Source of the DNA: Chloroflexota bacterium
Lineage (GTDB): Bacteria > Chloroflexota > Limnocylindria > Limnocylindrales > CSP1-4
Assembly: GCA_003152165.1 (NCBI GenBank)
Contig: PLZO01000013.1
Coordinates: 1 to 53,217 of the forward strand
Length of the DNA: 53,217 bases
Direction of reading: 5' to 3'
Both the position numbers and the translations under genes were made by a program. Below, one piece after another: positions 27,296 through 27,586 of the stretch (within the stretch, counting starts at the first letter, position 1; each line of letters opens with the position of its first letter). The notes under the pieces were generated by a model, which saw only the letters and a program-made list of their open reading frames with translations, was not told where the DNA came from and did no database searches.

Positions 27296-27586
27296 CTAGT
27301 GAAACTCGTCGCGTTCGATCGGTGGACCGAGTCTGGCCGCAACGAGGCCATGCACCTCTCCCGGGCGGGGATGTCGGTTGAGGGCCGCCTTCGAGAAGAG
27401 CAGCTCGCCATCGAGCGTCACTTCGAACCGGCCGCCGCTGCTCGGCAACAACGTCGCGCGGGCGATCCGTGGCGCCCACGCGTTGAGGAGCTCAGCCGCC
27501 AGACCGGTGGCTCGATCGGTGTAGTTTCAGACGACGCAGAACTCGACCTCGAGATTGTGCGGTCGGTCTGTCGGCTCAGCCTTCAT
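27296..27586 (-). CDS. Rdx-family (SelW/SelT/SelH-like) thioredoxin-like protein with in-frame UGA at the CxxU position: candidate selenoprotein
   Basis: MKAEPTDRPHNLEVEFCVV[UGA]NYTDRATGLAAELLNAWAPRIARATLLPSSGGRFEVTLDGELLFSKAALNRHPRPGEVHGLVAARLGPPIERDEFH*; UGA at 27529..27527; ends in TAG. Confidence 0.75.
27494..27512 (-). promoter_or_regulatory. Bacterial SECIS-like hairpin downstream of the UGA
   Basis: mRNA AGCCACC-GGUCU-GGCGGCU: six base pairs with one A.C mismatch, 5-nt loop; loop begins 22 nt after the UGA. Confidence 0.5.

Follow-up and report, generated by a model that had tools for sequence, protein, structure and literature searches.

A predicted bacterial SECIS hairpin in a SelW-like selenoprotein gene of a Chloroflexota bacterium

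The minus-strand segment 27494 to 27512 of a contig from a Chloroflexota bacterium is, as judged by comparison of sequences, very probably a bacterial SECIS (bSECIS) that directs the incorporation of Sec at residue 20 of a SelW-like protein. Since the fold alone is not significant, it is the comparison among relatives which decides the acceptance of this assignment, and the more than 100 orthologues, among them a Cys orthologue that lacks the hairpin, provide a clean demonstration of a bSECIS by comparison. A bSECIS in a SELENOW-like gene is a known kind of element in a known family, of which another instance is described here. The one point deserving more work is a shift of the hairpin between two registers among the orthologues.

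The features considered are listed below. The window is the whole stretch of DNA that was analysed (53,217 nucleotides), and offsets marked with a plus sign are counted from the UGA.

27296 to 27586, minus strand: predicted SelW-like (Rdx, PF10262) selenoprotein gene, recognized by its translation with UGA as Sec, Pfam Rdx and TIGR02174
27527 to 27529, minus strand: in-frame UGA (predicted Sec), codon 20, in a CVVU (CxxU) motif; kept in 107 distinct relatives and replaced by a Cys codon in 24
27494 to 27512, minus strand: predicted bSECIS hairpin, stem +15 to +21 / +27 to +33 with one A·C mismatch (+19/+29); based on pairing, conservation, covariation and a covariance model
27501 to 27505, minus strand: apical loop GGUCU, +22 to +26; the same loop is found in fdhA of the host and in E. 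coli fdhF

The SelW-like gene and the hairpin after its UGA

The gene starts with an ATG at 27586 and ends with a TAG at 27298-27296, and it reads MKAEPTDRPHNLEVEFCVV-UGA-NYTDRATGLAAELLNAWAPRIARATLLPSSGGRFEVTLDGELLFSKAALNRHPRPGEVHGLVAARLGPPIERDEFH before this stop. When the UGA is read as Sec, the protein is 96 aa long with Sec at residue 20, and it matches Pfam Rdx (PF10262) with 63.3 bits (2.4e-17), above the gathering score of 22.6, as well as TIGR02174 with 49.8 bits, which also exceeds the cut-off. In the alignment with Cys homologues, the place of the UGA is taken by the second Cys of their CxxC motif. A thioredoxin-like fold is predicted by homology to solved bacterial Rdx chains, which the protein resembles in sequence, and the protein probably acts as a thiol/selenol oxidoreductase. 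The gene looks broken, but most likely it is intact and encodes a selenoprotein. SELENOW-like selenoproteins (PF10262, CxxU) have been reported in bacteria since 2006 (PMC1794560) and are listed in PMC13188914; the window gene shares with them the family, the motif and the position of the UGA, and differs in coming from a Chloroflexota genome, where it is present in two copies.

Directly after the UGA (27529-27527), the minus strand reads AACUACACCGAUCGAGCCACCGGUCUGGCGGCUGAG, in which 27512-27494 corresponds exactly to +15 to +33. The strands AGCCACC and GGCGGCU face each other at seven positions, six of which are paired (+15/33, 16/32, 17/31, 18/30, 20/28 and 21/27), and the A at +19 stands unpaired opposite the C at +29. 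A preliminary description of this DNA had proposed a stem-loop at 27494-27512 with a GGUCU loop starting 22 nt past the UGA, and both the coordinates and the pairing have been reproduced. The bSECIS consensus of Zhang and Gladyshev, restated in PMC13188914, comprises a loop of 3-9 nt, a stem of 4-16 bp, a spacing of 16-37 nt, an MFE <= -7.5 kcal/mol, and a G among the first two loop nucleotides, after which G or U is usual. The hairpin lies inside this model in its loop size (5 nt), stem length (6 pairs plus one mismatch), loop G (GGUCU), spacing (21 nt from the UGA to the loop start at +22) and energy (-7.8 kcal/mol for 19 nt and -9.0 for 21 nt), and departs from it in the single internal A·C mismatch. 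The energy limit is passed by the hairpin taken alone, which is not the MFE structure of the 48-nt stretch after the UGA; that structure is a competing hairpin. A bSECIS after the UGA has also been found by comparative folding in SelW genes of Epsilonproteobacteria (PMC4607533), with a similar apical hairpin of 5-6 bp past the UGA, although these genes belong to another phylum and the present set of orthologues has two registers.

GGUCU is also the loop of the SECIS of E. coli fdhF, where it falls in the same codon phase (GGU CUG). In contrast, the present hairpin lacks the bulged U of that element, having the A·C mismatch in its place, and its loop begins at +22, whereas GGUCU begins at +19 in E. 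coli K-12; the preliminary description had named the fdhF loop correctly, but its distance of about 18 nt needed this correction. The mechanism established in E. coli is the binding of the loop by SelB together with Sec-tRNA, by which Sec is brought to the UGA. In the window gene, the hairpin starting 15 nt past the UGA would be contacted at its GGUCU loop by the C-terminal domain of SelB. This factor would deliver GTP and Sec-tRNA(Sec) to the ribosome once the UGA enters the A site. The insertion of Sec at residue 20 would then yield a 96-aa SelW-like redox protein of thioredoxin fold with a CxxU active site, and not a 19-aa peptide. For the host, SelB binding, Sec insertion and redox function are predictions made from sequence.

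The single sequence and its relatives

Single-sequence folding gives no support to the element, since the MFE of the 48 nt after the UGA does not stand out from that of codon-resampled copies (P about 0.6), which bears out the caution in the preliminary description that the fold alone is weak. In fixed-register tests, on which the hairpin counts rest, at least five of the six pairs are formed in 16.5% of the codon-resampled copies, and in 2.0% they appear together with GGUCU. The window contains 1299 TGA triplets on both strands, 52 of them followed by at least five of the six pairs, and only the UGA of the SelW-like gene is also followed there by GGUCU. An Rfam scan of the window at the gathering threshold returned no matches, which is expected because bSECIS elements are short.

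Relatives were gathered by a protein search of genome contigs together with class and phylum genome searches. The distinct sequences obtained in this way numbered 107 with UGA and 24 with Cys. In either of two positions, a loop G on a perfect 5-bp stem is present in 99 of the 107 UGA relatives and in none of the 24 Cys relatives, while synonymous codon resampling gives an expectation of 16.2 ± 3.4 of 107. For the register described above (register A, loop at +22), such a stem with its loop G is found in 63 of 107, versus 11.2 ± 3.1 after codon resampling. The conserved position, loop G and stem extend to UGA orthologues of at least five phyla and are absent in the Cys orthologues, the opposite of the lack of structural conservation that the preliminary description had named as evidence against its proposal.

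The 65 sequences assigned to register A were chosen partly on pairing, so that unselected controls are needed to read their counts, which are 63, 65, 64, 65 and 65 paired at +17/31, 18/30, 19/29, 20/28 and 21/27, respectively; G+23 is invariant (65/65). The pairs found are CG, UA and GC at +18/30, GC, AU, UA and one GU at +19/29, and CG, UA and UG at +20/28, and these three pairs have changed on both sides. In a 31-sequence alignment, 25 double-change cells were counted, versus 5.2 in shuffled alignments and no more than 4 in slid registers, and RNAalifold recovers the same helix unprompted. The compensatory stem changes that the preliminary description had proposed to look for are thus present across the UGA homologues.

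In G161, a genome of the same class, a close orthologue (55%) has a Cys codon and lacks the hairpin. The tRNA-Sec gene was called only when its score clearly exceeded the gathering score, because ordinary tRNAs also match and counts at E <= 0.001 are uninformative. By this measure, G161 gives only borderline matches at the level of ordinary tRNAs, with no clear gene, and four genomes with UGA copies (G000, G018, G138 and G155) have clear tRNA-Sec genes. Some UGA homologues hold hairpins fitting neither register exactly, namely L034 (Tissierellia), L041 (an Anaeromyxobacter-like bin) and L042 (Tectomicrobia), with loops AGUU, GGUC or AGUUG and offsets of +18, +22 and +23.

The host genome encodes a second SelW-like copy with a UGA on contig C49 (L096, 2626-2953). 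The repeated block shared by both copies spans 328 bp with 92.7% identity and reaches little beyond the gene, and the copies differ with dN 0.054 and dS 0.151 (dN/dS about 0.36). In the hairpin of the second copy, the +19/29 pair is regained (A-U), +17/31 is no longer paired (C/A) and the loop reads GGUUU. Having one stem mismatch each, at different pairs, neither copy passes the perfect-stem test; both hairpins are slightly imperfect, and one or both copies may be weakly used. The second copy sits on a contig of 7.9 kb, where its neighbours are a gene for an MmeI-type methyltransferase and a partial ORF resembling a transposase.

A chance hairpin in a GC-rich coding region, with Sec inserted through another element or the gene being a pseudogene, would agree with the non-significant single-sequence fold, the mismatch in each copy and the fairly relaxed divergence between them. 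It is nonetheless very unlikely, given that the hairpin keeps its position with compensatory changes in UGA orthologues and is absent in Cys ones, and that both copies retain the UGA, with a dN/dS of about 0.36. A covariance model from which both host copies were left out also argues against chance, since its two best matches in the 3.6 Mb genome are precisely the two SelW-like copies (40.9 and 36.0 bits; the next scores 19.0). A weak match of this model in E. coli was discarded, as it does not lie at the fdhF UGA.

Two registers of the hairpin

A second register, lying 4 nt nearer to the UGA, is the better fit in 35 sequences, with pairs from +12/28 to +17/23 and a loop at +18 to +22 that is mostly CGUGA or CGUGG; register A is unsupported in these 35. 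The set was picked for its pairing, and shows 7 double-change cells versus 1.4 when shuffled. Among the 44 UGA sequences lacking a perfect register A stem, 36 form a perfect stem in the second register, versus 3.0 ± 1.7 after codon resampling.

The register differs in two genera whose 12 residues after Sec are identical. L071, with its loop at +18, and L075, with its loop at +22, are separated by three synonymous changes and both keep GGUC in the loop; L120 and L134 differ in register with an identical peptide, and L111 and L112 are also alike. On the protein tree 9 register changes are required, a rough figure given the low resolution of this tree (82 columns, 107 rows). These observations make it fairly probable that a single orthologous selenoprotein family uses a bSECIS in two mutually exclusive registers (+22/+18), moved by synonymous substitutions that leave the peptide unchanged, and sequences able to form both stems could be register intermediates. 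If so, SelB would tolerate a 4-nt shift in the distance to the loop, and the orthologues would constitute a natural experiment on how strictly it measures from the UGA. No prior report of a two-register hairpin was found in the limited open-access literature searched, to which the novelty of the shift is provisionally tied.

The working hairpin of the window gene could itself be the nearer one (+11 to +17 / +23 to +29), which is partially paired there (0111011) and is used by the 35 relatives. This is even less probable than a chance hairpin, as its energy is -3.8 versus -7.8 kcal/mol for register A, and the closest relatives (L019, L024, L026 and L028) form register A.

Sec machinery of the host and neighbouring genes

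The host genome, whose assembly is fragmented into 177 contigs, encodes the complete set of SelA, SelB, SelC and SelD. The genes selB (273 bits), selA, which adjoins it, tRNA-Sec (selC, anticodon TCA) and selD (330 bits) all lie inside about 6 kb; next comes an fdhA, adjoining selD, whose reading frame contains a UGA (L183, 1750-1785; G000:C65, about 50-52 kb). A tRNA scan of the window found none, tRNA-Sec being located on a different contig. After its UGA, fdhA reads CACGCCCCUAGCGUCGCC-GGUCU-GGCGACC, which forms a perfect 6-bp stem and places GGUCU at +19, the same distance as in E. coli. The claim of the preliminary description that the hairpin supports Sec decoding is therefore backed by conservation, covariation, the complete machinery and this GGUCU loop, and the sequences suggest that the host reads UGA as Sec in no fewer than three of its genes. 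That the UGA is a true stop, with a downstream start giving a truncated protein without the redox motif, follows the standard reading of the code and is the least probable explanation, in view of the homology conserved on either side of the UGA, the Cys at its position in relatives and the complete Sec machinery.

A tiny Cys-rich ORF on the minus strand (27666-27731, MGMLLRCDCPCGPDCPCDCCC), preceded by AGGAGG and with a metallothionein-like composition, was not found in any relative retrieved. It overlaps the 3' end of a gene for a MerR-family regulator located just upstream of the Sec gene (28124-27698, minus strand), which is split across two frames. The HTH is encoded in the ORF 28124-27822 and the remainder in the ORF 28066-27698; the two meet near an additional C at about 28010-28030, and the gene is either broken or affected by a sequencing error.
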